Of a stretch of 64,000 bases of DNA, positions 11,712 through 53,969 are shown piece by piece. The number at the start of each line of letters is the position of its first letter. The first letter of the stretch is position 1. Below the pieces are notes generated by a model. It saw only the letters and a list, made by a program, of their open reading frames with translations, ran no database searches and was not told the DNA's origin. Source of the stretch: Pectinatus haikarae (lineage in GTDB: Bacteria > Bacillota > Negativicutes > Selenomonadales > Selenomonadaceae); contig NZ_WIQM01000016.1 of the NCBI RefSeq assembly GCF_015732185.1, positions 527,001 through 591,000 on the forward strand, read 5' to 3'. The position numbers were made by a program, and so were the translations under genes.

Positions 11712-12665
11712 ATGCAAAATGTTTTAGTAACTGGTGGTGCAGGTTTTATAGGTTCCCATCTGGTTCCCCACCTTTTAGCTCTGGGACACCAAGTCACCGT
11801 CCTTGATGATTTAAGCAACGGAAGAGAAGAAAACATTCCTTCCGAGGCAGAGTTTATCAAAATGGACATCTGCAACGAAAAAATCACCGGGGTTATGCAG
11901 AAAAAGAAATTTGATTCAATAATTCATCTGGCAGGTCAGACAGCTGTTTCTGAGTCCTTAAAAGATCCTATTATGGATGAAAAGCTTAATATAGAAGGCA
12001 TGATAAATATCCTGCGAAGTGCATGCCAAACAGGAGTCGCACGTATAATTTTTTCATCAACTGCTGCAGCTTACGGCAACAATGAAAACCTTCCCTTACG
12101 AGAAAGTGCGCTTGCCACGCCATTATCATTTTATGGTCTCAGCAAAGTCACCGCCGAAAAATACATCCGACTTTATCATGACTATTTCGGGATAGATTAT
12201 ATAATATTTCGTTTTGCCAACGTTTATGGTGAACGGCAGGGAGACGGAGGAGAAGGCGGTGTAATAAGTATTTTTGCCAAACAAATTGCCAATGATCAAG
12301 ATATTGCTGTTTTTGGCGATGGCGGACAAACAAGAGACTTTATTTATGCTGGAGATATATCATCCGGTCTGGGACAGGCTCTTGTGACAGACAATACAAA
12401 TGATACATATAATTTGAGTACATATACGCAGACAAGCCTGAAACAGCTTATAACACTGTTCGGCAATATCGCGCACAAAAATTTTTCTATAAAATATACC
12501 AAAGCGCGCTCCGGTGACATATACCATTCTATGCTGGATAATACCAAGGCTATAGAAAAACTGGACTGGCACATGCATACCTCCTTATCAGAAGGATTAA
12601 ATAAAACTTTTGCATATTTCAAAAAAGTAAAAGCTGAAGCGCACCAATGCGGTGATATTAAATGA
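11712..12665 (+). CDS. NAD-dependent sugar-nucleotide 4-epimerase (PelX/GalE-like)
   Basis: The 317-residue protein is an extended short-chain dehydrogenase: TGGAGFIGSHL binds NAD, SSTAAAYG supplies the catalytic Ser, and Tyr141 and Lys145 (FYGLSK) complete the active site. The family interconverts UDP-glucose/galactose or UDP-GlcNAc/GalNAc. As first gene of a Pel-type operon its likely job is to make UDP-GalNAc for the polymer, as proposed for PelX in some pseudomonads (inference). ATG 11712 is chosen over a start 84 bp upstream because AGGAGG lies 9 bp before it. Its stop overlaps the next gene by 4 bp (ATGA). Confidence 0.85.
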   Translation: MQNVLVTGGAGFIGSHLVPHLLALGHQVTVLDDLSNGREENIPSEAEFIKMDICNEKITGVMQKKKFDSIIHLAGQTAVSESLKDPIMDEKLNIEGMINILRSACQTGVARIIFSSTAAAYGNNENLPLRESALATPLSFYGLSKVTAEKYIRLYHDYFGIDYIIFRFANVYGERQGDGGEGGVISIFAKQIANDQDIAVFGDGGQTRDFIYAGDISSGLGQALVTDNTNDTYNLSTYTQTSLKQLITLFGNIAHKNFSIKYTKARSGDIYHSMLDNTKAIEKLDWHMHTSLSEGLNKTFAYFKKVKAEAHQCGDIK

Positions 12666-14794
12666 ATATTTTAATTGTAGGCGGCTGTGGATTTTTAGGC
12701 TCTCATTTTGCTGAAAAACTGCACAAAGAAGGCCATAAAATTTTTATAATAGATACGTGCAAAGATGCATCAGGCTGTGCCTTTACCTTTAAGCCGCAAA
12801 TTTTACAGTGCAGCGCTGAAGAAAACAGCTGTAAAACTTTTTTCGAATTATATAATTTTGATACAGTTATTTATTCCGTAAATACTGCTAAGATTTCTTA
12901 TCAGAAAAAATTTTCCGGATTATTAAATATTTTAGAATTATCCCACCGCCATAATATAAAAAAATTCATATTCATATCGGATGCCAAAAGCAGCATGATG
13001 ATGAAATGCGACAACGATTATGTTTTTCATTGCATCCAGCAGGAGACATATTGCAAAAATTGGACCAAAACCTTCAAAATTCCCGTCATTATAATTAAAT
13101 TGCCTAATGTATATGGTCCCGGTATGCTTCATAGCGATTACCCTTCAATAATACCTGCGGTTTTTGACGCTCTGTCTTCCGGTGAAAAATTGACAGATGA
13201 AAACATATCAGCATATCATCCCCAAAATTATATTTACATAAATGACGCGGCCGAAGTAATAAAAAAGGTTGTTGCCGCAGAGGGACTGCCCCCTGTACTT
13301 TGCGCTGAAGATGATTTCAATATATCGGCGGAAGGTTTAAAACATATAATTTCTGCTGTTCTGACAGGGAATGAACCCCAAAAAGGAAAAGATGATTTTA
13401 CTCCTGTCAGCCCTACAGCAGATACTGAAGCTGCAAAAAAAATTTTAGACATAAAAACCAAATACAGCTTATTTGAAGGAATAAAGCTCACAGGGACTTG
13501 GTATAAAGACACCATAATCAAGGATAAAAAAACAATAAAGTCATCCAATTTGCATTCACGATTTAGAACACTGCGTCCATATATGGAAAATTTGATACTT
13601 TTTGCCATAGTGTTTTTCATCACCGTTCAGTTGAATATCGTCAATAATTTTGAAGCAATGTCCGGTCTTGACTACAGCCAAATATATATACTTATAATGG
13701 GCCTGATTTATGGCAAAAAACAGTCTCTTATTGCTGCATTTTTATCTATGGCACTGTTCCTGTTCAAAATAAATTCAAAGGGTCTGGACGTAATTTCTGT
13801 ATTTTATAATATAGAATATACCATGCATCTGATAGCATATTTATTCATGGCCGTTTTTACAGGTTATATTACCGACAAACACAATTTTCATTTGCAGGAT
13901 ATGCTCCGCGAGCTGAATAAAATGGACACCAGACAAAAATTTTTAACAAAGGCATATGACGCAGCAATAGCACTGAAAAATAAATTTTACAGTCAAATAG
14001 TCAACTCAAGCGACAGCATAGGCTGGCTATACAACTCAGTAAATAAGTTATACAACATTGAAAGCGAAAAAATATATACGTCTGCCGTAGAGGTAGTATC
14101 TGAATTGATGGGCACGGAGAATACAGTTGTCGCGACAATTAATAAATCTGCTAATGGCAATATCTTTTTGCGTAGAAAAATAAAAAGAGGCAGCGCAACA
14201 GCAGCTTTACCGCTTTCTGCCAAAGTAGCCGATCATGAGTATCTTGATAAAGTAGTGAATAAAAAAGAAACTTTTGTAAATAAAACACTTGAAAAAAATA
14301 TACCGGATATGGCGGTGCCGGTGATTGTCCGCAATGAGGTGATCGCTGTGATAGGTATATATGCCATTCCTTTTGAATTTTTCTCTCTGCATTATGAAAA
14401 AATGATGCGTATCATAAGTATGATGATAGCAGAAGCATTGGATAAGGCATCACAATATGAAAGAGAAACACATGACCAGAAATATATCAAAGACACTGTT
14501 ATAATGAGAGAAAAGCCTTTTCTTGAAACAGAGAAAATCTTGCGGCAGCGTGGTATTGACAGCTACTATAAGTTTAGAATAGATGAAGTAAACGGCATTG
14601 TTCTGAAAAACGGTCTGAAAAATATACAAAAATCGGCCGATTATCTGCAAAAAGCTACCCGAGATGAAGATTATATCGGTATTGCAGGAGAATCTTTGTA
14701 TATTTTAATGGAGGAACTGCCGACAGATATGCTAGCCACAGTGCAAAAAAGATTTTTAGAAAAAAACATAAAACTATCTCCGGCAGGTAATTGA
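12662..14794 (+). CDS. pelD: PelD-like cyclic-di-GMP receptor fused to an N-terminal epimerase-like domain
   Basis: This 710-residue protein joins two modules. Residues 1-290 are an epimerase fold with the NAD loop GGCGFLGSH, but the catalytic Tyr-x3-Lys is degenerate (Tyr120 is followed by VFHC, with no Lys). Residues 310-405 hold three or four membrane helices; 410-450 look coiled; about 450-600 are GAF-like; the end is a degenerate GGDEF domain. There RDED (667-670) is placed like the RxxD inhibitory site of PelD, followed by AGESL where GGDEF would be. In Pseudomonas and Bacillus, PelD binds cyclic-di-GMP at this site and switches on Pel synthesis at the inner membrane. The N-terminal fusion is not part of classical PelD. 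Confidence 0.8.
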   Translation: MNILIVGGCGFLGSHFAEKLHKEGHKIFIIDTCKDASGCAFTFKPQILQCSAEENSCKTFFELYNFDTVIYSVNTAKISYQKKFSGLLNILELSHRHNIKKFIFISDAKSSMMMKCDNDYVFHCIQQETYCKNWTKTFKIPVIIIKLPNVYGPGMLHSDYPSIIPAVFDALSSGEKLTDENISAYHPQNYIYINDAAEVIKKVVAAEGLPPVLCAEDDFNISAEGLKHIISAVLTGNEPQKGKDDFTPVSPTADTEAAKKILDIKTKYSLFEGIKLTGTWYKDTIIKDKKTIKSSNLHSRFRTLRPYMENLILFAIVFFITVQLNIVNNFEAMSGLDYSQIYILIMGLIYGKKQSLIAAFLSMALFLFKINSKGLDVISVFYNIEYTMHLIAYLFMAVFTGYITDKHNFHLQDMLRELNKMDTRQKFLTKAYDAAIALKNKFYSQIVNSSDSIGWLYNSVNKLYNIESEKIYTSAVEVVSELMGTENTVVATINKSANGNIFLRRKIKRGSATAALPLSAKVADHEYLDKVVNKKETFVNKTLEKNIPDMAVPVIVRNEVIAVIGIYAIPFEFFSLHYEKMMRIISMMIAEALDKASQYERETHDQKYIKDTVIMREKPFLETEKILRQRGIDSYYKFRIDEVNGIVLKNGLKNIQKSADYLQKATRDEDYIGIAGESLYILMEELPTDMLATVQKRFLEKNIKLSPAGN

Positions 14795-14795
14795 A

Positions 14796-15713
14796 ATGAT
14801 AGAAATTATAGCGGGCTTTTTTCTAACAGCACATTTAGCGGCTGCGGCTGCCGTATATTTTATACTATCCAGAAAGAGCAGGCAGAAGGCTTTCTGTATG
14901 GGAGCGATAGTTTTATTTATCCCGATAGGCGGACTAATATATTACTGTGCCGAGGTACTGCTGTCCAGACGTTTTACGCAGAAAAATTTCATCAATGTCT
15001 ATGACTACAGCCTTCAGCGATCGGAAGATACTGACAGAAATATGAACTTCATCGATTATGATGAAGACGCGATCCCCATTCAGGATGTAATTGCCATAAA
15101 TGGTATCTCAAATAAAAGAGAGATATTGATAAACACAATCCGGCAAAATTTATTGACGGATTACAATACGCTCCTTACTGCGATGCACGATGATGACAGA
15201 GAAGTATCTCATTATGCAGTCTCAGTCATAACAAACACTGTCGACCGCATGGAAAATGAGATTTTTAAATTGAATAAGACAATCTACGATGATGACGGTG
15301 CTATATCCGCGTCACCCGATGTTTTGAAAAAATATGAAAAAATACTTGCCAATTATATCAAAGTATGCTCTATGGATGAAATAACAGAAAAGAATTTGCT
15401 GGAAAAATATGATACTGTATTAAGCAATATATTGGAACGGGCACAGGAACCGCTTTATTTTGAAAAAGCCGTCGCGCTGAAAATGAAACAGAATGATTTA
15501 TCCAAAGCTGAATATTTCTGTCAGTGGTATGAAAGAGCTTATCCTCTTTCGGAACGGCCTTATATCCTGCTGATAAAATTATATGCCAGCAAAAGAGACC
15601 GCGAACAGCTGGAAAGCTCCATAAAAAAGATGAAGGCCCTGCCGTCTGTCATCTCAAGTGATGCGCTCGGCTTGATACGGTATTGGGATACAGGAGACAG
15701 CGCCAATGTATAA
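14796..15713 (+). CDS. pelE: PelE-like membrane/TPR protein
   Basis: The 305-residue protein has two membrane helices at its N-terminus (residues 1-24 and about 32-53) and then a helical domain with TPR-like repeats (for example EKAVALKMKQNDLSKAEYFC and AYPLSERPYILLIKLYASK). That is the layout of PelE, a partner of PelD in the inner-membrane Pel complex. It starts 2 bp after pelD and overlaps the next gene by 8 bp, so translation is coupled. Assignment rests on layout and position more than on invariant residues. Confidence 0.65.
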   Translation: MIEIIAGFFLTAHLAAAAAVYFILSRKSRQKAFCMGAIVLFIPIGGLIYYCAEVLLSRRFTQKNFINVYDYSLQRSEDTDRNMNFIDYDEDAIPIQDVIAINGISNKREILINTIRQNLLTDYNTLLTAMHDDDREVSHYAVSVITNTVDRMENEIFKLNKTIYDDDGAISASPDVLKKYEKILANYIKVCSMDEITEKNLLEKYDTVLSNILERAQEPLYFEKAVALKMKQNDLSKAEYFCQWYERAYPLSERPYILLIKLYASKRDREQLESSIKKMKALPSVISSDALGLIRYWDTGDSANV

Positions 15714-17532
15714 GAAGAATCTATTTTTGGCTGTTTTAATCATTTTTGCAATGGGGCTTTTTTTTCAATTCAATCGAATGGATGTCCTGCTTCATTTATT
15801 TAAAAGCAAAAATGTGACAAATGCCGTAACTGCCTATATCAAAGAACCCGACTCGGCAAAGCGCTTGACGAAGGATCGTTTTTTGATAATCTATGACAAT
15901 GAAAATGTTTACTCGACGTTTTTAAAGTACAGGCTGCAAACCCAAATAGAACACTATATGAAAAAAGATGCTGATGTCATCACCATAAATGACAGCAGTT
16001 CTTTTCCGGCTAAAGATTACAGTGCCGTATTATGGGCTGCGGAGCGTTTTGACAATGAGGTGTTGTGGAACAGTGCAAGACAATATGCTGATAACGGCGG
16101 CACGCTGGAAATTATGACAACAGGCGGTATCGAAAATGCCCCTGCTCTTTATGAGCCTTTAGGCATCAGCAATGTAAACGGTTCAGTAACAGCAGCAGGC
16201 ATCAATATGACCAGCACTTTATTACTGGGTACCAATGGATTCAAAATGGCAGAAGGCGACACCAGCTACAATACATATGCCCTCAATTGTGAACTCCAGC
16301 CGGCAGCCAGTGTATATTTCACAAGCACCGACAGCCTGCCGCTTGCCTGGGAAAAAAAGCAGGGCAATGGTAAAATTATCGTATATAACGGCACGGAACT
16401 ATATGCGAAAAAGAATTTGGGGATTTTAACAGCACTGCTGTCTCAAAGTCAGGATGATTTTTTGTTTCCGGTCAGCGCCACAAAAACTGTATTTATCGAT
16501 GATTTTCCGGCACCTGTGCCTGATGGAGATTTCAGCAAAATCTATGCTGAATACGGACTGGCAACAGCCGATTTTTACGAACGGATCTGGTGGCCTTACA
16601 TGCTGGAAACAGCCAAAAAATATGATCTAAAATATACAGGTGCAATAATTGAAACATATAATGATGAAGTAACTGGGGATTTTCGCATATATGATCAGAA
16701 TGCACGGAGAAACCTTATCAAATACGGCAGAGAACTGTTGAACAGCGGTGGTGAGCTTGGCATCCACGGTTATAACCATCAATCACTCGTAGGTGCAGGA
16801 TATGGTGTAAGAAAATATCTTGGCTATAATATATGGGAAAATCAAAAAGAAATGGAAAACTCTCTAAGTGAACTTAAGCGATATATAGCTGATGCCTTTC
16901 CCGGTTACGAAGTTCATGCGTACATACCACCGTCAAATGTATTCAGTCCTGAGGGAAAGGCTGCTGTTAAGAAGATTTTCCCTTCAATAAAGGCCTATGC
17001 ATCAATGTATGAGGGAAATTACAGCGCTGAAAAAGTCTATTATCAGGATTTTAAACAAAACGAAGATGGAACCTTCGAATTTCCGCGCTTATCGGCAGGT
17101 TATAATCCTGACAGGAGTATGTATTACAGTGCTATAAACGGATTGAATGCCTATGGCATATTCAGCCATTTTGTTCATCCTGATGAGATTTTTTACGAAG
17201 AAAATGGTAATAACCGCTTTAGTGATATGGAAAATGGATTTGACCGTTTTATGGAATATTTTACCGATAACTATATATGGCTGCGCAGCACGACACTCAG
17301 TGATACCTTAAAATATTTCGGTGATTATCTGTCAATGGATTATAAATATCAAGAAAAAAATAATGTTTTGCACATTGACACATGGAATTACCAGTACGAA
17401 CCGTCTTATATACTGCGTTCCACCAAAAAAATAAGGCGCTATGAAGGCTGTGATATAACTAAAATTCAGAACGACGCTTACTATATAAAAATAAAGAGCA
17501 GTGAAGCTGCCATAACTTTTGACGAGGAATAG
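15706..17532 (+). CDS. PelA-type polysaccharide deacetylase (DUF2194-like)
   Basis: The 608-residue protein has an N-terminal signal anchor (residues 5-23), an alpha/beta domain up to about residue 255 and a CE4-like deacetylase domain. Visible catalytic parts are FIDDFPAP (Asp265/Asp266), GIHGYNH with a His-x3-His metal pair (His354, His358) and FSHFVHPDE (His488, His491). It matches the deacetylase part of PelA and the stand-alone version described in Gram-positive pel clusters, which removes acetyl groups from GalNAc units to give a cationic polymer. It lacks the PelA hydrolase domain, which is a separate gene at 22527. AGGAG precedes ATG 15706. Confidence 0.78.
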   Translation: MYKKNLFLAVLIIFAMGLFFQFNRMDVLLHLFKSKNVTNAVTAYIKEPDSAKRLTKDRFLIIYDNENVYSTFLKYRLQTQIEHYMKKDADVITINDSSSFPAKDYSAVLWAAERFDNEVLWNSARQYADNGGTLEIMTTGGIENAPALYEPLGISNVNGSVTAAGINMTSTLLLGTNGFKMAEGDTSYNTYALNCELQPAASVYFTSTDSLPLAWEKKQGNGKIIVYNGTELYAKKNLGILTALLSQSQDDFLFPVSATKTVFIDDFPAPVPDGDFSKIYAEYGLATADFYERIWWPYMLETAKKYDLKYTGAIIETYNDEVTGDFRIYDQNARRNLIKYGRELLNSGGELGIHGYNHQSLVGAGYGVRKYLGYNIWENQKEMENSLSELKRYIADAFPGYEVHAYIPPSNVFSPEGKAAVKKIFPSIKAYASMYEGNYSAEKVYYQDFKQNEDGTFEFPRLSAGYNPDRSMYYSAINGLNAYGIFSHFVHPDEIFYEENGNNRFSDMENGFDRFMEYFTDNYIWLRSTTLSDTLKYFGDYLSMDYKYQEKNNVLHIDTWNYQYEPSYILRSTKKIRRYEGCDITKIQNDAYYIKIKSSEAAITFDEE

Positions 17533-17536
17533 TCCG

Positions 17537-18952
17537 ATGAAAATTTGCATTTTGACGGAAGGTAATTATCCATATGTGGTTGGCGGCGTATCAGCATGGA
17601 TCCATATGCTGATACAGGGCATGCCGGAACATCAGTTTATAATTTATTCAATAGGCGCGGAAGAGAAAGACAGAGGCAAATTCAAATATCAGTTGCCTGA
17701 CAATGTCATAAAGGTACAGGAAACATTTCTCGACAGCATATTACACTTAAAAGCACCTACTAAAGTAAGGGCAAAGTTAAGCGACGAACAGAAAAAATCC
17801 TTGCAGGAGCTGCTGAAGGGTGTAAATAAATTCGATTTCAAAATGCTCTTGAGCATTTTTCGTCAAACAAAAAAAAAGTATACTTTTATGGAAATTTTTA
17901 TGTGCCAGGATTTCTACGATATTGTTATGACCGTTTATAAAAACAAATTTCCGTACCTGCCCTTTACGGATTATTTCTGGACAATACGTTCCATGCTTCT
18001 GCCGTTATTTTATCTGCTGCAGGAAGACTATCCTAAGGCAGATCTTTATCACAGTGTTGCCGCGGGTTATTGCGGTGTCATAGGAGCAATGGCTTCTTTA
18101 CTGGAAAACAAACCATTTTTATTGACCGAACACGGTATCTATTCAAGAGAAAGAGAGGAAGAAATATTAAAATGCAGCTGGGCTGAGGGCGATTTCAAAA
18201 AAGTCTGGATCAAATATTTTTATGCTTTGTCTAATCTATCGTATGAACACGCAGACACAGTGACGACACTTTCAGAGGGAAATCTAAATGTAGAGCTGGC
18301 TCTTGGCTGCGACGAAAAAAAAATTCTTATAATACCCAACGGAGCAAAAGTTGACCGTTTCAGCACTGTCACCTCCGATTACAGTGGAAAACGTCCTTTT
18401 ACAGTCGGCGCTATCGTCCGCATAGTGCCTATAAAAGATATCATCACCATGCTTCGCAGCTTTTATATGCTGAGTCGTGATATTCCCAATGCACGCTTTA
18501 TCATTATGGGCAACTGTGAAGAAGACCCCGAATATTTTGACTCCTGTAAGAATATGGTAAAAACGCTTAATCTGAGCAGCGTAGAATTTACAGGTGCAGT
18601 TGATATCTTGACACGCCTGGATGATATAGATGTACTGGCATTATCCAGTATAAGTGAGGGGCTGCCCTTGGCTATACTGGAAGGAATGGCTTCCAGGAAG
18701 CCTTTTGTTTCAACAGATGTAGGCTGCTGCCGTGAACTGCTTTACGGAAGTTACGATGATGACTTGGGCAAGGCGGGAATAATCGTTCCCGTGATGGATT
18801 TCAAAGCTATGGCAAAAGGCTTTCTTCTGCTGGCCCAAACCCCTTCACTGCGTCAAAGCATGGGAGAAATTGGCTGTGAGCGAGTGAAAAAATACTATAC
18901 GTATGAGGAGTTCATAACAAATTTTAAAAATCTTTACAGCAGCTATAATTAA
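17537..18952 (+). CDS. pelF: PelF glycosyltransferase
   Basis: The 471-residue protein is a GT4-type cytosolic transferase with the PelF hallmarks ILTEGNYPYVVGGVSAWIH at the N-terminus, LTEHGIYSREREEEI in the middle and the EX7E-type motif SEGLPLAILEGMASRKPFV near the end. PelF polymerises UDP-activated N-acetylhexosamines into Pel at the inner face of the membrane. ATG 17537 is chosen because GAGGAA lies 8 bp upstream; that site sits in the end of the deacetylase gene, whose stop is 4 bp before. This is the best-conserved marker of the operon and identifies it as Pel-type. Confidence 0.9.
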   Translation: MKICILTEGNYPYVVGGVSAWIHMLIQGMPEHQFIIYSIGAEEKDRGKFKYQLPDNVIKVQETFLDSILHLKAPTKVRAKLSDEQKKSLQELLKGVNKFDFKMLLSIFRQTKKKYTFMEIFMCQDFYDIVMTVYKNKFPYLPFTDYFWTIRSMLLPLFYLLQEDYPKADLYHSVAAGYCGVIGAMASLLENKPFLLTEHGIYSREREEEILKCSWAEGDFKKVWIKYFYALSNLSYEHADTVTTLSEGNLNVELALGCDEKKILIIPNGAKVDRFSTVTSDYSGKRPFTVGAIVRIVPIKDIITMLRSFYMLSRDIPNARFIIMGNCEEDPEYFDSCKNMVKTLNLSSVEFTGAVDILTRLDDIDVLALSSISEGLPLAILEGMASRKPFVSTDVGCCRELLYGSYDDDLGKAGIIVPVMDFKAMAKGFLLLAQTPSLRQSMGEIGCERVKKYYTYEEFITNFKNLYSSYN

Positions 18953-19013
18953 AAAAAATAACTGATATAATCGACTCAGCTTAAAGGCTGCCGGATGAAA
19001 AGGAGATAAACAA

Positions 19014-20489
19014 TTGGCTGGAATAGGTTTCGAGTTAAAACGATTATTTGCAGACAAAAGCGTATATGGTTACAGCAAAGCTTTTTCATATACAATCATG
19101 GTAACACTTGGTCCTTTTATTCTTATGACAGTGATGATTTTATCCATTCAGCTGATGCTGAAAATATTCGATAAGCCTTTTTATTTATCGGAGCTATACG
19201 TTGTTTCCGTTATTTATCCCTTTATCTTTTCTCATATATTTTCCAGCGGCTTCAATATGATCATAACTCGCTATATTTCTGACAAGCTCTACATAAAAAA
19301 ATATGATGATATAATCCCTTCAATGTATGGTATATTGAGCATAGCTCTTTTTTGCGCTGCCATACCCGGTGCTCTGTTTTTTTATTTTGCCAAAATTGAT
19401 CTTATCCTGAAATTGTTCACATTTATTTTCTTTATGCAAATGATCATGTTATGGTTGTTAGGTGTCTATCTGAGCGCACTGAAGGATTTTGCCAAAATCG
19501 TACGCTGTTACGGTATCGGTATTACCGTGGCAATAGTTCTCAATTTTTTAGCTCTATATATAAATTTCCAGGATACCGTTTCAATGGCAATGATCTGTAT
19601 GAATACAGGCATACTGTTGATAAATATTTTGCTCTTGTTTGAAATAAAGAAATATTTCACAACATCCAGCAATGACTATTTGGGATTTCTCCCCTATTTT
19701 GACAATTATGGCAGTTTATTCACTGCCAATTTATCTGTTACTTTAGGAATGTACATTCCCAATATAATTTTTTGGTTCAGTGAAATGCAGACAGTGGTTT
19801 CCGGTACATATATCTATGCTCCGTCATATGATACTGCCACATTTTTTGCATTTATGTCTTCACTGGCAGTAATGGTAATGTTTGTTGTAGTAACCGAAAC
19901 AAATTTTTATACGAAATATGCACGTTACTTTAATTATATTACAAATAAAGGAAACGCCGCCGATATTGAAACCGCAAAAATCGAAATGATTGGCACGATG
20001 TGGCGGGAACTGCGCAATATATTTGAATTTCAACTGGTGATCACGCTTTTGTTCATAGTTGCCGGCAATTATCTTCTCCCGCTGCTTGGCTTGAATTATG
20101 AAGCCATATCAATTTATCAAGTTGTCTCTACCGGAGCATACGCTTGTGCCTTAATGCAGATAATCATCATTCTGCTGTTTTATTTTGAAGACAGACGCGG
20201 TGCCATGGTACTATGCATATCATTTTTGGCACTTAACATAATTTCCAACTTGGTCAGTCTGCATATGGGACGCACGACCTTTGGCACAGGATTTTTCTTA
20301 ACCTCCTTTATTATGCTGCCCGCAGCTGTATACAGACTGGATAACTACATGCAAAATATAGACTATTACATATTTTGTAAAAGGCCGGTATATCACAACC
20401 GGGACAATGGTATATTTACTATCATTTATGAAAAGCTTATCTGCGGTAAAAGGGAAGGTGTTATCGTTGAACAACCACAAAAAGGCTGA
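19014..20489 (+). CDS. pelG: PelG polysaccharide transporter
   Basis: The 491-residue protein starts MAGIGFELKRLF, the typical PelG N-terminus, from a TTG codon with AAGGAG 9 bp upstream. About 12 hydrophobic helices cover the chain, as in the polysaccharide flippase (MOP) superfamily. PelG is thought to carry the growing Pel chain across the inner membrane together with PelF, PelD and PelE. The end of the gene overlaps the start of the next by 23 bp. Confidence 0.88.
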   Translation: MAGIGFELKRLFADKSVYGYSKAFSYTIMVTLGPFILMTVMILSIQLMLKIFDKPFYLSELYVVSVIYPFIFSHIFSSGFNMIITRYISDKLYIKKYDDIIPSMYGILSIALFCAAIPGALFFYFAKIDLILKLFTFIFFMQMIMLWLLGVYLSALKDFAKIVRCYGIGITVAIVLNFLALYINFQDTVSMAMICMNTGILLINILLLFEIKKYFTTSSNDYLGFLPYFDNYGSLFTANLSVTLGMYIPNIIFWFSEMQTVVSGTYIYAPSYDTATFFAFMSSLAVMVMFVVVTETNFYTKYARYFNYITNKGNAADIETAKIEMIGTMWRELRNIFEFQLVITLLFIVAGNYLLPLLGLNYEAISIYQVVSTGAYACALMQIIIILLFYFEDRRGAMVLCISFLALNIISNLVSLHMGRTTFGTGFFLTSFIMLPAAVYRLDNYMQNIDYYIFCKRPVYHNRDNGIFTIIYEKLICGKREGVIVEQPQKG

Positions 20490-22515
20490 TGTAAAAACTG
20501 CCTCTTCGATTTTATATAGGAAGATGCGAAGCTCAATCTTCTACGCGATCATACCGTTAGGATTATTTTTACCGGCCGGCAGCGCATCTGCCGCAGGAAA
20601 TCCAGGCGCTGTATCTGCTGTGGATGAAAGTGAAGACACTATAGACAGCATTCAAAATGAGGCACAGTCAGTAACTGACAGAAAAAATAATGAAGCTGCT
20701 CTGCAAAGCACACAAAAAGATTTACAGCAAACTGAACTGGATATTACTTCCACTCAATCATCCTTAGCAGATAATTCTGTGAATATCACACAAGGACAGG
20801 CAGATTTAACTGCCATCCAAAAAAATCTTCAGACAGCTGTGCAGCAAGAAGATACTGCCTATGACAATTTTTTAAAAGCCTATGCAAAAGCGCTTTCCGC
20901 CGTTGATGAAGCAACCGCATTACAAACAGAACTTATCCGTTATCAGGCAGAATATGAAGCAACCGTGTCATATGAAAATCATATCAACAGCATTTCATCC
21001 GTGTCCTCAAACAACACTACGGCTATAGCGGGTCGTGCAGAAGAGGGAAACGGCAGCGTACCATCAGAAATAGAGGCTAAACTGAAGGAATATAATTATG
21101 ATGAAAATTATCTTGATACAATAAATAAACAGCTTTATGGCGGTCAATCTCAAGCCGACAGCGGCAGCACTGTCCAAGATGAAAGTGAAGAGAATGATGC
21201 TGTTCAGGAACAGGCAGCAGCCGATGCCGCATCCCGTACTGCACAGGCAGAAAGCGAACTTGAAAATGCGCAGGGCCGCATGGACGAATTGCAGGATATC
21301 ATCGCTGCAAGCGACGACGCCAAAACCGACTGGGATGATGCCCAAAAAGACGTTGCTGAACTTACAAAAGACGAATCAGAACAAAATGAATATTTGGCTG
21401 CTCTTTTGCAGGATCAACATGAACTGACAGGATATCTTACCGAATACACAGAAAACAGGAAGAATCTTGCCGATGATATCCTCTCCATAAAAGAACTGCT
21501 TAATCCCTATCAAAATTACAGCAGTTTGCAAACTTCGGCCAAATTTTACACATGGCACGACGGCACCGGCCACAAGGGAAAACAATATATTAATCGGACA
21601 GATTACAGCGCAGCCATAGGAAAGTTTGAATTTGGTCTCAGCGGAGGAACTTTCAGATCAAATAATGAAAGCAGCAATAACGGCAGTGCCGGCGGTCTCC
21701 TCGATACAGACCTGCACATGGGCATCCGCAATTTTAGTGAAATAAATCAAGTTACCTACAATATGGATATAAACATCCCTACAGGAAAAAACAATCTGCG
21801 AAGCACTACTGCAATGTCAACTGATCTTGTCCCTTATGACAGATTCGGTGACGGTTGGCAGATCACTCCCTCCATACGTGTCAAACACAAAGTCAATGAT
21901 ATAAATTATATACTCTATGGCGGCGGTATAAATTTCAAGGGAAGTTATAATTACAACAACACCAGCATCAATCCCGGCACAGAATTTACAGGAAATATCG
22001 GCTGGCTGCATGCAGCCGAAGGAGAGCAATTTTTATCTCAGATGTTTTTCAACAAATCCGCCAGAAGTCAGGACGGTGACCTCTCCTATAGGGACGGCAG
22101 CAGTATTGAATGGCGCAATACATATAACAAACAATTGACGAAAAATTATAACTGGCCATCATATGTTTGGCTGGCTTACAGCGCCAAACCGGACTATTAT
22201 GATGACACAACTGCATCCGGCAGCCAGACACGTATCTTTTACGGCACAGGCATAGAGAAAAAACTTTCCGCTAAAGAAAAGTTACGCTTGATGTTTCACG
22301 GTATGCACAGCATAGGCAGCGATTATGATCCTGTCACACAACTGGCCTTCTCAGGCAGAGACAGATATTCTCTGAAACTGTCATATAATAAGATCCTCAA
22401 TGACAAAAACAGTTATTCTGTCTCATTAGAAGATTTTTATATGAAAGACAGCGGCAACAGCACACAATCATACAAAGGTATAAATTTAATGTTCAGCTAT
22501 AACAGGAACTTTTAG
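20467..22515 (+). CDS. Coiled-coil plus beta-barrel outer-membrane protein, putative Pel exporter
   Basis: From TTG 20467 (GAAGG 8 bp upstream) the protein has 682 residues. A signal peptide (RSSIFYAIIPLGLFLPAG, then SASA) is followed by a long Gln/Glu/Ala-rich helical, coiled-coil region to about residue 330. The rest consists of alternating Gly/aromatic strands (for example KFEFGLSGGTF, NYILYGGGINFKGSYNY) and ends LMFSYNRNF; a terminal Phe is a mark of barrels folded by BamA. Pel export in Pseudomonas needs the PelB barrel with TPRs and lipoprotein PelC; neither is recognisable here. This gene is placed to do that job, with the coiled coil spanning the periplasm in place of the TPR scaffold (inference). 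I know no named family for it. Confidence 0.7.
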   Translation: MNNHKKADVKTASSILYRKMRSSIFYAIIPLGLFLPAGSASAAGNPGAVSAVDESEDTIDSIQNEAQSVTDRKNNEAALQSTQKDLQQTELDITSTQSSLADNSVNITQGQADLTAIQKNLQTAVQQEDTAYDNFLKAYAKALSAVDEATALQTELIRYQAEYEATVSYENHINSISSVSSNNTTAIAGRAEEGNGSVPSEIEAKLKEYNYDENYLDTINKQLYGGQSQADSGSTVQDESEENDAVQEQAAADAASRTAQAESELENAQGRMDELQDIIAASDDAKTDWDDAQKDVAELTKDESEQNEYLAALLQDQHELTGYLTEYTENRKNLADDILSIKELLNPYQNYSSLQTSAKFYTWHDGTGHKGKQYINRTDYSAAIGKFEFGLSGGTFRSNNESSNNGSAGGLLDTDLHMGIRNFSEINQVTYNMDINIPTGKNNLRSTTAMSTDLVPYDRFGDGWQITPSIRVKHKVNDINYILYGGGINFKGSYNYNNTSINPGTEFTGNIGWLHAAEGEQFLSQMFFNKSARSQDGDLSYRDGSSIEWRNTYNKQLTKNYNWPSYVWLAYSAKPDYYDDTTASGSQTRIFYGTGIEKKLSAKEKLRLMFHGMHSIGSDYDPVTQLAFSGRDRYSLKLSYNKILNDKNSYSVSLEDFYMKDSGNSTQSYKGINLMFSYNRNF

Positions 22516-22526
22516 GAGGAACGGAT

Positions 22527-23516
22527 ATGAAAAGAAAATTTTTTATCTGTATAATGTTACTTTCGCTGACGATCCCTTTCACAGAATGCAAAGCAAATGA
22601 TGCAGCAGAAAATTCTCCGTATTTTTACAGAACAAAAATGATTGATTTCATTAGCGATATATCTTCTTACGCTAAAAACCAAAAACATGACTTTGGTTTT
22701 ATCACCAATAACGGCCTGGAACTTTATCAGAGCAGCGAAGTGCCTGCCGGCTACGCCGGGCAGCTTCTGGGTGCGGCAAACGGCGCACTGATAGAAGGTT
22801 CTCAATACACATGGGATGACAATCACAACGGCGGTGTACAGACGTCTGTCGAAACAAAAAAATACATAACTGATTCTATTGCTGTTCTTCACAGCAATAG
22901 TAAGCTCATCCTTTCTGTCGATTACTGCGGAGATGATAAACAAAACGCATTGACAGCAATAGAAAAAAATAATGCGGAACATATCGTCACATTCCCCGCA
23001 CGATATAAAGAGCTGACCTCTCTGGAATACGGCAGCCTGGAAAAAAACGACAAAAATCGTGATATAAATACACTGAATACCGTCAAGTCCTTCATCATTC
23101 TGCTCAACCCTGAAAAATTTACTGATAAAGCAGATTACCTGTCAAAATTAAAAACATCTTCTGCAGATCTTCTAATAATCGATTTATACTATAATGGCAG
23201 TCCGTTATCCTCAGAAGACTTAAATTATCTCAAAACAAAAACCGACGGCCATAGACGTCTTGTGTATTCATATATGAGTATAGGTGAGGCAGAAGACTAC
23301 AGATACTACTGGCAGACACAATGGAATGAGGAACTTCCTGACTGGATAGTCACTAAGAACGACCAATGGCAGGGTAATTATCCTGTAAAATATTGGCGTA
23401 AGGAATGGCAGAAAATTATTTACGGTACCAAAAACGCTTATCTTGATAAAATCATATCTGCCGGTTTCGACGGAGCTTTTCTGGACATAGTGGACGGCTA
23501 TCAAAACTTTGAATGA
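22527..23516 (+). CDS. Secreted GH114-like glycosidase (separate PelA hydrolase module)
   Basis: The 329-residue protein has a signal peptide (MKRKFFICIMLLSLTIPFTE) and a TIM-barrel of the endo-alpha-1,4-polygalactosaminidase/TM1410 type. Marker segments are SADLLIIDLYYNG, YSYMSIGEAEDYRYYW (likely catalytic acidic residues) and GAFLDIVDGY at the end. The hydrolase domain of PelA is related and cuts GalNAc-rich Pel. Here it stands alone as last gene, 11 bp after the barrel gene, with GGAGG before the ATG. It probably trims or releases Pel in the periplasm or outside the cell. Confidence 0.78.
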   Translation: MKRKFFICIMLLSLTIPFTECKANDAAENSPYFYRTKMIDFISDISSYAKNQKHDFGFITNNGLELYQSSEVPAGYAGQLLGAANGALIEGSQYTWDDNHNGGVQTSVETKKYITDSIAVLHSNSKLILSVDYCGDDKQNALTAIEKNNAEHIVTFPARYKELTSLEYGSLEKNDKNRDINTLNTVKSFIILLNPEKFTDKADYLSKLKTSSADLLIIDLYYNGSPLSSEDLNYLKTKTDGHRRLVYSYMSIGEAEDYRYYWQTQWNEELPDWIVTKNDQWQGNYPVKYWRKEWQKIIYGTKNAYLDKIISAGFDGAFLDIVDGYQNFE

Positions 23517-27393: not shown

Positions 27394-29172
27394 TTATTGC
27401 GGTAATTTCAAATTCATATTACCATAATCATTTATTATAAAAGTACTTGCATGAATCGCCTTGCATTTTTTCTTTACGGCAGCCGCCTTCGATGCCAATA
27501 TCGTAGAGGTAAGGCCATCCTTACCGGTTATTCTTAAAACGGCCAGAGAGACCGTCATCAGCGGGAACTTTTCTATCTGCCCATTCCTGTTGGCAGCAGC
27601 GATATATTTTTCCATTCGGTGTTTGGCCGAATAGAAATTTTTACTTTCCATATCAAAATTTTTTATGAGCATATTACATACTTCTGATATTTCATCCGCG
27701 GGAATAAACGCTATAAAATCATCACCGCCTATATGTCCGAGAAAAAATTTCTTCGTATATTTGTTCAGTGTTTCATGCAGCAGCCTGGCCGTTGCTATAA
27801 GCACCGTATCCCCTGATTCAAAACCGTAAACATCATTATATACCTTAAAATTATCTATATCGATGTAAATGACCGCGAAGGGTATAAATTTTTCCAAATA
27901 AGCAGCCAGGGTCCATTCTATCACATTATTCCCGGGCAGTCCCGTAAGCGGATTGGCATGGCGGGCACGGTTTATCTCCAATTTGGTGGTGACCTCAAGC
28001 AGTTTTTTTATAGTTACCGTTCCGTAGTATTTACTGTCTTTTACGACAATGATGGCATCATATGTGCATCCGTTCTGCCTGTTGAGCACCTGTTGGGATG
28101 TTTCTTCTATGGAGGTCTCATAATCAACAATCAAGGGTTTGTTATTCATCAGCAAACGGATGGGACGATTACTGTACAGCGATATGCCATATTTAGTTGC
28201 AAGATGCTGATAAAACATATTATAATTCAATATTCCTGCCGGAATACCCTCATCCACAATTATTACATCCAAAGGTTCCTGCATGGAACGAAGATAATCC
28301 AAAATAACATGTCCCATCGTTTCGGAAGAAAAGGTCGTCTGCTTAGATGCTATTTCACCGATAGTCATATTCAGCAGCGTGTTTAAGCGAAAATTTTCTT
28401 TTTCCCTGTTTACTTCACGAATATAACACACAATACTTTCTTCCAGTTCCAAAAGCTCCGGTTTTGGCCGTCCCAGAAAAAAACCCTGTCCATAGTCGAC
28501 ACCCAGCTCAATAAGAATATTCAGTTCTTCCTTGCGTTCTATTCCCTCTGCAATTATCTTTATATTGGCAGAATGGGCAAAACCGACTAAAGCTTTGACA
28601 ATAGATTTTCTGATATGGTTTTTATCTATATCTTTTACAAGGCCGATATCAAGCTTTATAAATTGAGGCGCTATCTGCGCCAAAAGATTCAGCCCGCTAT
28701 AACCTGCGCCCACATCATCAATGGCTATTTTATAATTCTGGCATTGATAGTTTTCCAATACAGCGCAAAAGGATTTATAGTCATCAACTGTTGTTTTTTC
28801 ACTTATTTCAAATACTATATCCCTTTCATTCAAATTGCATTGCTGCAGAAATTTCGCCGTAGACCCTTGATGAAAATTGCGATCATATAAAATTCGCGCA
28901 TCTACATTTAAAAACAATTTTCTACTGCCCAGAATATTTTCCACATTTTTTATGGCCAGGCTGCGGCAGAGATAATCCAAATGCCACAAGCATTTCTCTT
29001 TTTCGGCAAGTGCGAAAAGTGCATCAGGCGGATGAAGCGGACTGCCCTCCGGTCCCCGGCTGAGCGCTTCGTAGGCAAAAATCTCCCCATTTTTTAAGGC
29101 AACGATAGGTTGATACACTGGTGTTATAAGTTTATTTTCCAGAATCATCTTCAACTCGCCACTTTCATTCAA
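27394..29172 (-). CDS. EAL-CBS-GGDEF protein (cyclic-di-GMP turnover)
   Basis: Of 592 residues, 1-240 are an EAL phosphodiesterase domain (YEALSRG, LNVDARIL, AIDDVGAGYSGLNLL), about 260-390 a CBS pair and about 400-560 a GGDEF domain whose signature reads GGDDF. The EAL motif is complete, so hydrolysis of cyclic-di-GMP is likely; GGDDF may still be active or may serve as a GTP sensor. No RxxD inhibitory site lies in front of it. CBS domains often sense adenine nucleotides. No membrane segment is seen, so it is cytosolic. It could set the signal level read by the PelD-like protein and the riboswitch nearby. Start is TTG 29172, with GAGAAGG 7 bp upstream; Met 29148 is an alternative. Confidence 0.85.
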   Translation of the reverse strand: MNESGELKMILENKLITPVYQPIVALKNGEIFAYEALSRGPEGSPLHPPDALFALAEKEKCLWHLDYLCRSLAIKNVENILGSRKLFLNVDARILYDRNFHQGSTAKFLQQCNLNERDIVFEISEKTTVDDYKSFCAVLENYQCQNYKIAIDDVGAGYSGLNLLAQIAPQFIKLDIGLVKDIDKNHIRKSIVKALVGFAHSANIKIIAEGIERKEELNILIELGVDYGQGFFLGRPKPELLELEESIVCYIREVNREKENFRLNTLLNMTIGEIASKQTTFSSETMGHVILDYLRSMQEPLDVIIVDEGIPAGILNYNMFYQHLATKYGISLYSNRPIRLLMNNKPLIVDYETSIEETSQQVLNRQNGCTYDAIIVVKDSKYYGTVTIKKLLEVTTKLEINRARHANPLTGLPGNNVIEWTLAAYLEKFIPFAVIYIDIDNFKVYNDVYGFESGDTVLIATARLLHETLNKYTKKFFLGHIGGDDFIAFIPADEISEVCNMLIKNFDMESKNFYSAKHRMEKYIAAANRNGQIEKFPLMTVSLAVLRITGKDGLTSTILASKAAAVKKKCKAIHASTFIINDYGNMNLKLPQ

Positions 29173-30455: not shown

Positions 30456-30484
30456 TTTACATCTTTCATTGTATGCTGTAATAA
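30456..30484 (+). promoter_or_regulatory. Promoter of the riboswitch-controlled chemoreceptor
   Basis: TTTACA, 17-bp spacer, TAATAA. The predicted start (about 30491) coincides with the first base of the aptamer. Confidence 0.6.
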
Positions 30485-30490
30485 GATATT

Positions 30491-30572
30491 ATGGGCAAAC
30501 TTATTGAAAAATAAGGACGCAAAGCTATGGGTCTGTGCTGATAAAATATTTGCACTGATCGCCAGGCTGCAT
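30491..30572 (+). ncRNA. Cyclic-di-GMP-I (GEMM-I) riboswitch aptamer
   Basis: The conserved GEMM-I parts come in order: GGGCAAAC, a hairpin with a GAAA-type loop (TTATTGAAAAATAA), GGACGCAAAGCTA, and the second arm ending GCCAGGCTGC. These match the known class that binds cyclic-di-GMP between its two helices. Its 3' end overlaps the 5' arm of the terminator at 30566-30595, so ligand binding and terminator folding should exclude each other; that would give more transcript when cyclic-di-GMP is high (inference). Confidence 0.85.
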
Positions 30573-30595
30573 AAATTTATTTGTGCAGCTTTTTT
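30566..30595 (+). terminator. Expression-platform terminator of the riboswitch
   Basis: GCTGCA (30566-30571) pairs with TGCAGC (30584-30589), followed by TTTTTT. It lies between the aptamer and the chemoreceptor start. Confidence 0.75.
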
Positions 30596-30648
30596 CATGT
30601 GCACAAATTTTAGACAAACAAAAAATACTTATCGGAGGAGACAAATTT

Positions 30649-32367
30649 ATGAAACGATTAGCTGACCTAAAAATTAAGTCCAAATTGAGCCTCTTAATCT
30701 TTTCAGTAGTGATATTTCTTATTATTGTAGGATATACCAGTCACTATTCGACTCAGATACTCTCAGAAAAACTCAATATCATGTATACAGACAGATTGCA
30801 GCCTATTCAGCTGCTAAATTCGGCCCGGGCGGAAAGCAGACGAAATGAAGCCATAACATATTCCATATTTGCGTCCAGAGATTCTGCCGAACAGCAGACA
30901 TTGCTGGGGTCACTTGAGGAACATAAGAAAATATATATTGACTTTTTAGATAAATTTCAACAACGCACTCTCGATGAGACCGAAAAAAATGATATAGAAA
31001 AAATTAAGGCAGATACAAAAATATACCGTGAAGCATGGCAAACTGCTATTTCAATGGCGGTGGCTGGTAATCAAGAAGAAGCCATACTTTATTTCAAGAA
31101 AAACGCTCTTCAGCATCTGACTGATATCAATAAAACCCTTGATGATTTATCCAATTACGAAAATCAGCTGGCCGAACAGGAGAATCAACTTGGCAATAAA
31201 ATTGCTTCTTTAAATGACAATATAACCCTGATAATAACTTTAGCAGCAATAATTTTATCGGGAGGTCTGGGATTGCTTATTTCCCGTTACATCTCCATAC
31301 CGTTGCATAGTTTGATGGAAGAAGTTGACGAACTTTCTGCCGGAGATTTTAAAAATACTGCCGATAATTCACATTATTATAATGATGAAATAGGCAGCTT
31401 GGGAAGAGCAATGGGAACAATGCGCAGCAAGCTGCGTGAACTTATCAAGCAGATACATAATTCAGCTGAACAGCTGGCAGCATCTTCGGAGGAGCTTTCA
31501 GCAAGTGCCGATCAATCCGCACAAACCTCCGATCAGGTCGCAAATTCCGTTACAGAAGTCGCCAGCGGTGCGGAGAAGCAGCTTGAACTGACCGATAAGG
31601 CCAGCAGTACTGTAAAACACATTTCTGCTGCAGTCACTGAAGTCTCATCCAATACCAGAACACTCGCTAATTCGGCTGAGAAAGCCGCAGCTGCGGCCAA
31701 TGACGGTGAAGCGTCCATCCAGCAGGCTATGGATCAAATGAAAATCATTGAAAATAAAACAAATGATACAGCCGCGGTTATCGAAGAGCTCAATGCACGA
31801 TCTGCACAAATAAGTCAGATTGTTGATGTTATTTCCAGTATAGCCGGCCAAACTAATTTATTGGCTCTGAATGCAGCGATCGAAGCAGCCAGTGCCGGCG
31901 AAGCAGGAAAAGGTTTTGCTGTAGTGGCCGAAGAAGTAAGAAGGCTTGCAGAACAATCCCAATCTGCGGCAAAACAAATCACCGAGATCATAGGACAGAT
32001 TCAGAAGCAGACGAACAGTGCCGTAAATTATATGAATGACAGCAAAAACGAAGTGGACAACGGAACCGTTGTCGTCGCCAATACCGGAAAGAACTTTGAG
32101 CAGATACTGTATATGGTAAAGACCATGACTGAACAGATATTGGCAATATCTGCATCAGTCGATAAAGTAACGCAGCATTCAAGAAATGTTGTTGATGCCG
32201 TCGATTCCATAGACACAGAAAGCAAAAAGGCTTCTGATGAGACACAGAATATATCAGCAGCCACTGAAGAACAATCAGCCACTGTGGGAGAAATAGCCTC
32301 AGCCAGCGGTAAACTGGCAAAATTAGCAGAAAATCTGCAAGCTATGGTTCAGGAATTTAAGGTTTGA
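30649..32367 (+). CDS. Methyl-accepting chemotaxis protein
   Basis: ATG 30649 follows CGGAGGAG by 8 bp and gives 572 residues. There are two membrane helices (about residues 12-33 and 190-212), a four-helix-bundle-type sensor domain between them, a HAMP segment and a cytoplasmic signalling domain with the hairpin tip [17 protein letters not shown]. The protein would sense a periplasmic or membrane cue and steer CheA. Control by a cyclic-di-GMP riboswitch links it to the motile/sessile switch. No che genes are nearby. Confidence 0.93.
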
Positions 32368-37418: not shown

Positions 37419-37476
37419 GACAGCCTCTTCCTTTCTCTCCAAAACAAATGTAAAGTATATCTCCTGCGGCAGCAAT

Positions 37477-38823
37477 TCAAATGGCTGTCATATATTCCCA
37501 AACCGGGCTGTTAATACTGAGGTTTATTTCTCTTGTAAAATTTTCTACACCTTCATAACCGCCCAAAGCATGCTTTCTTTCATGATTATGATCGCAAAAA
37601 GCCACACCCAGTTTATAAGCAAGCGGCCTTTCTTTTACTCCGCCAACCAATATATCCGCTTTTTTCTGTTTTATAAAAAACTCGAGCTCCGCAGGATTGG
37701 CATCATCCAGTATTACTGTATCATCATTCACTATGCTCTGAATAACTTCATATTCATCTTTTTTCCCTGTTTGTGTGCCGACGACTACTGTTTCAATCCC
37801 CATTTCATTAAATTGCCTGATCAAAGAAATAGCCTTAAAACCGCCGCCGACATAAATTGCTGCTTTTTTACCTTCAAGATTAGGTCTGTATTTTTCCATA
37901 AATTTTCTGAGACGGAAGCCTTCATTTTTCGTAAAAGCCTCTGCCTTTTCCACCATTGAAGCATCGCCCAGCATATGTGCTACCTGCATTATGGAAGCAC
38001 TCGTATCTTCAATGCCAAAAAAACTTACCTTCATGAATGGGATGCCGAATTTTTCCTCCATCATATTCGCCAGATACATCGATGATCCGGCACACTGAAC
38101 TATATTCAGAGCAGCCGATGGTGCTTTTATAAGTGTCGCATAGGAAGCATCACCAGTAATCGTCGACACCACATCTATGCCTATTTTTTTAAAATAATTT
38201 TTTATCAGCCACATCTCTCCGGCCAGATTGAAATCGCCGAGAATATTCACACCGCTGTGCAGTGCCTTTTCAGACAGCTGATGAGGACTGATCAAACGCA
38301 TCATTGCATCGCATGCCAGTTTATATCCCTGCCTTTTTGTACCCGAAAAGCCAGCCGCTTTTACCGGGATCACACGAATATGATATTTTTCGCCGGCCTT
38401 CCTGCATACTGCCTCCACATCATCTCCTATTACCCCGACAATGCAGGTAGCATATACAAAAATCAATTCAGGCGAATATTTCGCTGCTATTTCATCTATT
38501 GCCGCCATTAATTTTTTTTCTCCGCCGAAGATGATATCCTCTTCTCTGAGATCTGTAGAAAAACTGTTGCGATAAAGTTCACTGCCGCTTGACAAACTTC
38601 CCCTGATATCCCATGTATAGCTGGCACAGCCGATAGGACCGTGGACTATATGAAATGCATCTGTTATCGGGTTTAAGACAACACGCGCGCCGCAATACAC
38701 GCAGGCTCGCTGACTCACAGAACCGGAAATACTAGCCTTATCGCAGTCTATGCTTTTGCTGCTGCAGCCAATATTTTTTACCATTATTGACTTTTGCCGC
38801 GTTTCTAAAATTCCCTCGCTCAT
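37477..38823 (-). CDS. nifE: NifE, FeMo-cofactor scaffold subunit
   Basis: The 448-residue protein is NifD-like but has the NifE marks: QRACVYCGARVVLNPITDAF, HGPIGCASYTWDIRGSLSSG and STDLREEDIIFGGEKKL. It pairs with the NifN part of the next gene to form the scaffold for cofactor maturation. ATG 38823 has AAAGGATG upstream; a longer frame to 38850 lacks one. It is separated from nifK by 346 bp containing two hairpins, so its level may be set apart from the structural genes. Confidence 0.93.
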   Translation of the reverse strand: MSEGILETRQKSIMVKNIGCSSKSIDCDKASISGSVSQRACVYCGARVVLNPITDAFHIVHGPIGCASYTWDIRGSLSSGSELYRNSFSTDLREEDIIFGGEKKLMAAIDEIAAKYSPELIFVYATCIVGVIGDDVEAVCRKAGEKYHIRVIPVKAAGFSGTKRQGYKLACDAMMRLISPHQLSEKALHSGVNILGDFNLAGEMWLIKNYFKKIGIDVVSTITGDASYATLIKAPSAALNIVQCAGSSMYLANMMEEKFGIPFMKVSFFGIEDTSASIMQVAHMLGDASMVEKAEAFTKNEGFRLRKFMEKYRPNLEGKKAAIYVGGGFKAISLIRQFNEMGIETVVVGTQTGKKDEYEVIQSIVNDDTVILDDANPAELEFFIKQKKADILVGGVKERPLAYKLGVAFCDHNHERKHALGGYEGVENFTREINLSINSPVWEYMTAI

Positions 38824-38889
38824 AATCCACACATCCTTTTTCCAAAACACATCTGTATATTAAAATCACCGATAAATAAAAATACAAAG

Positions 38890-53798: not shown

Positions 53799-53876
53799 GG
53801 CCCTGTAGCTCAGTTGGATTAGAGTGTTTGACTACGAATCAAAAGGTCGCAGGTTCGAATCCTGCCAGGGTCACCA
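53799..53876 (+). tRNA. tRNA-Arg (ACG), copy 1
   Basis: Acceptor GGCCCTG/CAGGGTC, anticodon arm TTTGA-CTACGAA-TCAAA, T arm GGTTCGAATCC, encoded CCA. ACG is read as ICG and decodes CGN codons. Confidence 0.95.
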
Positions 53877-53883
53877 TTAACAT

Positions 53884-53969
53884 GGGTAGGTGCCCGAGTG
53901 GTTAAAGGGAACAGACTGTAAATCTGTCACCGCGAGGTTACGATGGTTCGAATCCATCCCTGCCCACCA
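53884..53969 (+). tRNA. tRNA-Tyr (GTA), copy 1
   Basis: Class II tRNA with a long variable arm; acceptor GGGTAGG/CCTGCCC, anticodon loop CTGTAAA, encoded CCA. Confidence 0.95.

Follow-up and report, generated by a model that had tools for sequence, protein, structure and literature searches.

The stretch of DNA analysed here, termed the window, comprises 64,000 nucleotides of a contig from the Negativicute Pectinatus haikarae (NZ_WIQM01000016.1, positions 527,001 to 591,000, assembly GCF_015732185.1). Between positions 11712 and 23516 it carries an operon that very probably serves a diderm Firmicute for the synthesis, modification and export of a Pel-type polymer, with the product of the gene at 20467-22515 acting as the outer-membrane exporter; this reading is built on gene content, a lack of PelB-barrel matches, a predicted fold, linkage to pelG and copies in loci of other kinds. 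The family to which this barrel protein belongs most likely represents undescribed outer-membrane exporters for synthase-made polysaccharides, which would replace PelB and PelC and probably also BcsC. Eight open, co-directional genes fill the region according to the list of open reading frames (ORFs):

11712-12665, plus strand: galE, a UDP-sugar 4-epimerase (Epimerase PF01370, E 1.9e-56; galE TIGR01179, E 2.9e-56, below its cut-off)
12662-14794, plus strand: pelD with an N-terminal short-chain dehydrogenase/reductase (SDR) domain (Epimerase at residues 3-206, E 9.7e-18; GAF at residues 469-593, weak, E 0.025)
14796-15713, plus strand: pelE-like gene (from position and profile; no informative Pfam or NCBIfam match)
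15706-17532, plus strand: pelADA, a DUF2194 polysaccharide deacetylase (PF09960, E 4.3e-120, over cut-off; Polysacc_deac_1, E 1.1e-4, just below cut-off)
17519-18952, plus strand: pelF, a GT4 glycosyltransferase (NF038011 PelF, 371 bits against a cut-off of 100, E 1e-110; PF11997, E 6.1e-81)
19014-20489, plus strand: pelG, the inner-membrane Pel transporter (PF16933, E 1.7e-122, over cut-off)
20467-22515, plus strand: coiled-coil/16-stranded barrel protein, the proposed outer-membrane exopolysaccharide exporter (AlphaFold2 model and linkage; no Pfam match)
22527-23516, plus strand: pelAH-like hydrolase, circularly permuted, of the TM1410/GH191-GH114 type (TIGR01370 halves swapped; fold of TmGH191 and PelA)

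Through which protein might Pel leave a cell that has an outer membrane? Exit via the barrel is suggested by four things taken together: the predicted fold, the linkage to pelG, the absence of the usual exit and the reuse of the family beside other synthases.

The barrel gene starts with TTG at 20467, about 7 nucleotides (nt) downstream of a purine-rich stretch, and overlaps the pelG stop at 20487-20489. The start of the protein, read by eye, is signal-peptide-like and ends near LPAGSASA; a helical region comes next, and the barrel occupies approximately 21529-22515. An outer-membrane barrel was foreseen in the preliminary description, with structure prediction as the check, and the AlphaFold2 model (19 aligned sequences, start taken at 20464, one codon early) agrees with it. 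Mean predicted local distance difference test (pLDDT) is 79.8 and the predicted template modelling score 0.63; most barrel blocks reach 80-97 and loops are as low as 54-79. Two helices, residues 49-179 and 245-346, are joined by an uncertain linker and form a long hairpin; from residue 352 to 682 we counted 16 strands in the printed elements of the predicted model. By arithmetic (1.5 Å per residue) the helices would measure about 195 and 150 Å, enough to span much of the periplasm.

Foldseek places Escherichia coli BcsC at rank 1 and PelBC at rank 33 with this model, and VIA-align places PgaA first (Z 19.7, 263 residues, 3.7 Å), tied with CdiB. A 16-stranded barrel is reported to be common to PelB, BcsC and PgaA (PMC12141448). 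With BcsC and PgaA the window protein has this predicted strand number in common, as well as the top ranks in the two comparisons and family members that adjoin BcsA- or BcsB-like genes; it differs from them in having no BCSC_C or tetratricopeptide repeat (TPR) match, and structural-alignment identity is 7-9%. Sequence databases offer little. Pfam gave no match at E ≤ 0.5, the TPR and S-layer homology (SLH) families included, and NCBIfam gave coiled-coil-type matches alone, far below cut-off (the best, MscK, has E 6.9e-5 and scores 21 bits where 991 are needed). No sequence of the Protein Data Bank matched the barrel family profile at E ≤ 10, and PF13557, a generic barrel family, was touched by three of 26 family members.

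Is the known exit present elsewhere in the genome? The assembly is 99.57% complete and, as befits a diderm, has one Omp85 gene and two SLH-porin genes of the OmpM type, the porin genes being located away from the operon. The PelB_C profile (PF24604) has zero matches at E ≤ 1 in this genome, and the PelB of an Azonexus plasmid used as control (W01) gives 1.7e-58. An Azonexus PelC query likewise found nothing at E ≤ 1, a single query being a weak probe for a small lipoprotein; the same query gave weak matches in two of 15 other Negativicute genomes (E 0.11, 0.22, 0.55). The statement that no PelB or PelC is visible can be widened from the operon to the genome for the PelB barrel, and for PelC as far as that one query goes. 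PelB_C exceeds its cut-off in none of 57 PelG-positive Negativicute genomes, the window's own included; at E ≤ 1 it has matches in eight of 59 genomes or records, namely the Azonexus control and seven Negativicutes.

Compared with PelB and PelC of Pseudomonas, the barrel protein shares the place in the pathway, the predicted 16-stranded barrel and a large periplasmic helical region ahead of the barrel; it differs in having a coiled-coil hairpin and neither a PelB_C match nor TPRs. Barrels diverge fast, and the protein might be a diverged PelB that descends from a common ancestor and has had its TPRs swapped for a coiled coil. The same predicted strand number, the same place in the pathway and the presence of PelBC in the Foldseek list would fit such a descent. 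It seems unlikely nonetheless, as the PelB_C profile has no match in the window genome, homology to one Azonexus PelB received an hhalign probability of 0.4%, and the top structural matches are PgaA, BcsC and unrelated barrels. The main interpretation of the preliminary description is supported, but its proposal of an independent solution for Pel holds in a restricted sense: there is no detectable sequence relation to PelB and a coiled coil replaces the TPRs, but an independent origin of the barrel itself cannot be shown.

Linkage was assessed in a census of 341 genomes of the class, each at least 80% complete. PelG exceeds its cut-off in 57 of them (59 at E ≤ 0.001; the two below cut-off, G205 and G021, were left out). 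A profile search detects the barrel in 63 and a single-sequence search in 62, G231 being the one added by the profile. It is present in 55 of the 57 PelG-positive genomes and in eight of the 284 without PelG over cut-off; the two PelG-positive genomes that lack it (G097 and G219) have a contig end within the gene or directly ahead of it. One genus (g1) has two genomes with both pelG and barrel and three with neither. The barrel lies at most 1 kb downstream of pelG in 52 of the 57, with G097, G197 and G247 counted as adjacent from the coiled-coil half alone; one more (G055) has pelG and the barrel in a single reading frame. As to the remainder, the barrel is 5.3 kb downstream within the cluster in G195 and on another contig in G190 and G251, and G219 has the contig end. 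An exact 4-nt overlap of the pelG and barrel ORFs, as in translational coupling, occurs in 18 genomes; gaps were taken from longest-ORF starts, and reading frames are broken in G247, G249 and G250. In G244 (L080:10714-14545) the barrel gene is split by a gap of about 1.5 kb, much as an insertion would leave it.

The same picture comes from 80 named pelG loci, sorted by record title. The barrel or its coiled coil is present in 18 of the 19 Negativicute loci, and a barrel match in none of the 61 others; in 55 of these the sequence continues for 3 kb or more beyond pelG. The single Negativicute exception, L158, is census genome G251, with its barrel on another contig; the assemblies are partly the same, and the 57-genome and 19-locus counts are therefore not independent. 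Outside the Negativicutes the coiled-coil profile has one weak match (18 bits), to a gene of locus L194 that lies some 6 kb beyond pelG and has no barrel match; we take it as a chance coiled coil. The survey of Negativicute pel loci that the preliminary description called for thus finds near-complete co-occurrence with pelG within the class. Two statistics were set aside. The correlation of barrel and PelG distances is 0.85 (36 genomes, Mantel 0/2000), but all tested pel gene pairs correlate at 0.80-0.97, which shows joint inheritance only; the co-occurrence odds (54/5/8/274, p 5e-48) ignore phylogeny and are not used as proof.

These counts bear on a further reading, in which the protein is a porin, general or for nutrients, that the pel operon only carries along. 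The many porins with similar fold-comparison scores would allow for this, but a passenger porin is highly improbable in view of the adjacency or fusion in 53 of 57 genomes, the 4-nt overlaps, the scarcity of the barrel among genomes without PelG and the setting of six of the ten non-pel copies in other polysaccharide loci.

The ten copies outside pel loci are spread over nine genomes (the other-contig copies of G190 and G251 were left out), and six of them adjoin other synthase-dependent polysaccharide genes. In L125 and L128 the copy stands beside a BcsA-like synthase with PilZ and an MBOAT acyltransferase; in L122 and L123 beside BcsB and a GT2 synthase, with a DUF2334 protein in L122; and in L121 and L124 beside a set of GT2 and deacetylase genes, the GT2 of L124 being recognised by eye. 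BCSC_C (PF05420) has no match at E ≤ 1 in ten genomes, i.e. the nine with non-pel barrel copies and the window's own; three controls give matches, E. coli among them, and one of these is over cut-off. The family is not Pel-specific, as it has copies in BcsA-, BcsB- and GT2-type loci. The chief new result is that the family has the appearance of a general exit by which synthase-made polymers cross the outer membrane of Negativicutes, with pel as the commonest partner.

Several observations weigh against export as the role of the barrel. In VIA-align, CdiB, CymA, BamA, BcsC (18.0) and ordinary porins lie near PgaA (Z 16-19.7), and the 50 matches listed do not include PelBC; since many barrels score alike, the fold points to an outer-membrane barrel of the right size and not to an exporter as such. 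The seven Negativicute PelB_C matches, with E 0.0017-0.43, are below cut-off and cover part of the profile, and the absence of PelC is weakly tested because one query was used. Operon genes travel together, so that linkage alone does not name the step. Four of the ten non-pel copies (L120, L126, L127 and L132) have no evident synthase neighbour; the L127 copy is near a sugar dehydrogenase-like gene, recognised by eye, and that of L132 is at a contig edge. Finally, a coiled coil followed by a 16-stranded barrel is also the reported plan of OmpM, a protein of the same class (PMC10628300).

The last point is relevant to a role of the barrel as an outer-membrane anchor or tether of the OmpM kind, or as a lectin that keeps Pel at the surface. 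The window protein resembles OmpM of Negativicutes in its coiled-coil stalk and 16-stranded barrel, but it has no SLH domain and is tied to polysaccharide operons; an hhalign comparison with one of the genome's two OmpM-type proteins gave a probability of 0.5%. No OmpM-named entry is among the 50 matches listed for either fold search, which excludes nothing. Copies in several types of polysaccharide-synthase loci fit export better than wall tethering, and an anchor would leave these diderms without a visible Pel exit. An anchoring or lectin function is accordingly judged distinctly unlikely, and export by the barrel is kept as the preferred reading.

The synthesis side of the operon follows the Gram-positive type. 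PelF, PelG and DUF2194 exceed their curated cut-offs and PelE is assigned from position and profile, in accord with the first assignment of PelD, PelE, PelF, PelG and a deacetylase. The PelG match is the single one in the window's own genome, and the nearest among the 80 named loci is that of Pectinatus cerevisiiphilus (PelG 70% identical; others 27-42%). The PelE profile also picks up the genes that occupy this position in pel loci of Paenibacillus and clostridia and, with a weak score of about 30 bits, in those of fusobacteria. The order pelD, pelE, pelADA, pelF, pelG is found in the window, and with the Gram-positive pelDEADAFG clusters as described in Whitfield 2020 (PMC7112168) the operon also shares an SDR-PelD, split deacetylase and hydrolase genes, and galE. 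It differs in that all eight genes are co-directional and in the added outer-membrane barrel, found in 0/61 loci of other organisms.

The longest ORF of galE opens at 11628, and the ATG at 11712 is preceded by AGGAGG. The GalE motifs GGAGFIG and YGLSK are both present, and supply of UDP-N-acetylgalactosamine (UDP-GalNAc) is its likely role. The SDR half of PelD has GGCGFLG and no YxxxK within its first 300 residues and is probably an inactive epimerase. Toward its C-terminus PelD carries R-x-E-D, resembling an inhibitory site (I-site), at residue 667. The longer form R-x-[ED]-D-x-x-G, which we take to be the PelD I-site, is present in 46 of 50 uncut PelD-profile ORFs of at least 380 residues, with R-x-Q-D in two of the four misses; it replaced stricter patterns that scored 1/36 and 27/50. 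The motif suggests an input of cyclic diguanosine monophosphate (c-di-GMP) to the operon. Inactive SDR domains in PelD are described by Whitfield et al. (PMC7112168), with which the missing YxxxK agrees.

How would the parts act together? UDP-GalNAc from GalE would feed synthesis, and c-di-GMP bound at the I-site of PelD would turn on PelF, with PelE. PelG would take the chain across the inner membrane, PelADA would deacetylate it in the periplasm and the permuted hydrolase would trim it; the product would be a Pel-type polymer of GalNAc and galactosamine (GalN). These synthesis and inner-membrane steps should match the Gram-positive scheme. The chain would then exit via the 16-stranded barrel, with the long helical hairpin reaching into the periplasm and bridging it as the TPRs and PelC do in Proteobacteria. 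The Pel barrel would form one branch of a family that, in Negativicutes, takes the place of BcsC and serves other synthase-dependent polysaccharides too.

TIGR01370 matches the hydrolase with E 5.3e-40 (137 bits, below the curated cut-off of 181), and GH114 (PF03537) is over cut-off. Residues 30-200 match TIGR01370 positions 186-296 and the remainder matches positions 58-175; TM1410 itself (E 5.8e-24) aligns in the same swapped order, the second piece weakly. A truncated or frameshifted gene was considered, as the TM1410 match stops half way. There is no continuation in the other two frames and relatives end alike; this similar end, together with an N-terminal half that matches the missing C-terminal half of the profile, shows a circular permutation. 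The AlphaFold2 model (pLDDT 89.4) matches the folds of TmGH191 and the PelA hydrolase domain, and Foldseek pairs about half of it (about 150 of about 285 columns) with TmGH191, as expected of a permutation. The protein therefore resembles the TM1410/GH191, GH114 and GH166 (PelA) hydrolases in the sequence of both halves, which is like TM1410, and in fold, but differs from the TM1410/GH191-GH114 enzymes in the order of the halves. Its Glu254 and Asp320 are conserved.

A pelAH-type hydrolase lies near pelG in 48 of the 57 PelG-positive genomes. The permuted form is also present in fusobacterial and Mcinerneyibacterium pel loci (L063:17280-18239 and L207:2642-3580), where full-length alignment indicates the same half order. 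GH191 enzymes are reported as alpha-galactosaminidases, in a paper whose main text does not contain the stem 'permut' (PMC12054363), and the literature search found no paper that combines 'circular permutation' and 'GH114'. The preliminary description had placed this hydrolase with the outer-membrane part of the system. That assignment is given up: it is of the accessory PelAH type, which, like GalE, is already known from the surroundings of Gram-positive pel loci (PMC7112168).

In G055 (L076:9171-12578) pelG reads through, with no stop, to a signal-peptide-like segment, a coiled coil and the barrel, giving 1135 residues; this is a single genome and the fusion could come from an assembly error. 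Among the 61 non-Negativicute loci, 18 from Paenibacillus, Brevibacillus and related organisms (L163-L168, L170, L172-L174, L176, L177, L180, L184, L185, L189, L190 and L192) have a PelG with an in-frame extension of about 570 residues, and in two fusobacterial plasmid records the extension is about 250-310 residues long. A lipobox-like motif follows directly after PelG in 18 of these 20 extensions, including 16 of the 18 longer ones, and two Bacillota examples resemble CotH by eye. Fusion of PelG to a predicted secreted or lipid-anchored partner is thus recurrent, and the partner varies by lineage.

In the two plasmid records, from Cetobacterium and Fusobacterium (L062:14001-17025 and L063:14001-18239), PelG is fused to the lipobox-like motif and YDKNGF-type repeats. 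The next gene encodes a protein of 305-316 residues that is small and outer-membrane barrel-like and is 30% identical between the two. The Cetobacterium record gave no PelB_C match. Whether the fusobacterial and Negativicute barrels are homologous was also considered, and hhalign, with a probability of 0.4%, lends this no support. The PelG-lipoprotein and small barrel are possibly another separate outer-membrane exit.

A broader view, for and against which we hold the scales to be even, is that an undescribed family of coiled-coil outer-membrane secretins, found class-wide, would carry Pel, cellulose-like and other synthase-dependent exopolysaccharides in Negativicutes, in place of both PelB/PelC and BcsC. 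An ancestral pelDEAFG core would be a monoderm-compatible module to which diderm lineages each added an exit of their own: Proteobacteria PelB/PelC, Negativicutes the coiled-coil barrel, and Fusobacteria a PelG-lipoprotein with a small barrel. Some genomes would make PelG and the exit part as a single polyprotein, with cleavage at an internal signal peptide setting the exit part free.

The literature search, as judged by title and start of abstract among the matches listed and with subscription papers and preprints outside its range, found no description of this barrel and none of the passage of a diderm Firmicute biofilm polysaccharide through the outer membrane. The words Selenomonas and diderm are absent from the main text of Whitfield 2020 (PMC7112168), as are Selenomonas, Negativicutes, Veillonella and Fusobacteri- from the main text of its companion paper (PMC7112194). 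Homologues of PelF and PelG are mentioned in Selenomonas sputigena (PMC13339959), and a response to putrescine is mentioned for a pelG-containing operon of fusobacteria (PMC12826042). If the proposal is true, one unnamed family tied to Pel and cellulose-type loci fills the exit gap for Negativicutes. The family also offers a comparison of how outer-membrane exits arise when pel moves between monoderms and diderms.

Other features of the window are located downstream of the operon. A gene for an EAL-GGDEF protein is at 27394-29172 on the minus strand, and the gene for a methyl-accepting chemotaxis protein (30583-32367) has a c-di-GMP-I riboswitch (30484-30574) directly ahead of it. Nitrogenase-component-1-type genes occupy 34755-38850 on the minus strand, and one is fused to radical SAM and FeMo-co domains; this fused gene is presumably NifN-NifB-like. 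A tRNA-Arg/tRNA-Tyr pair is tandemly repeated at 53799-54158.

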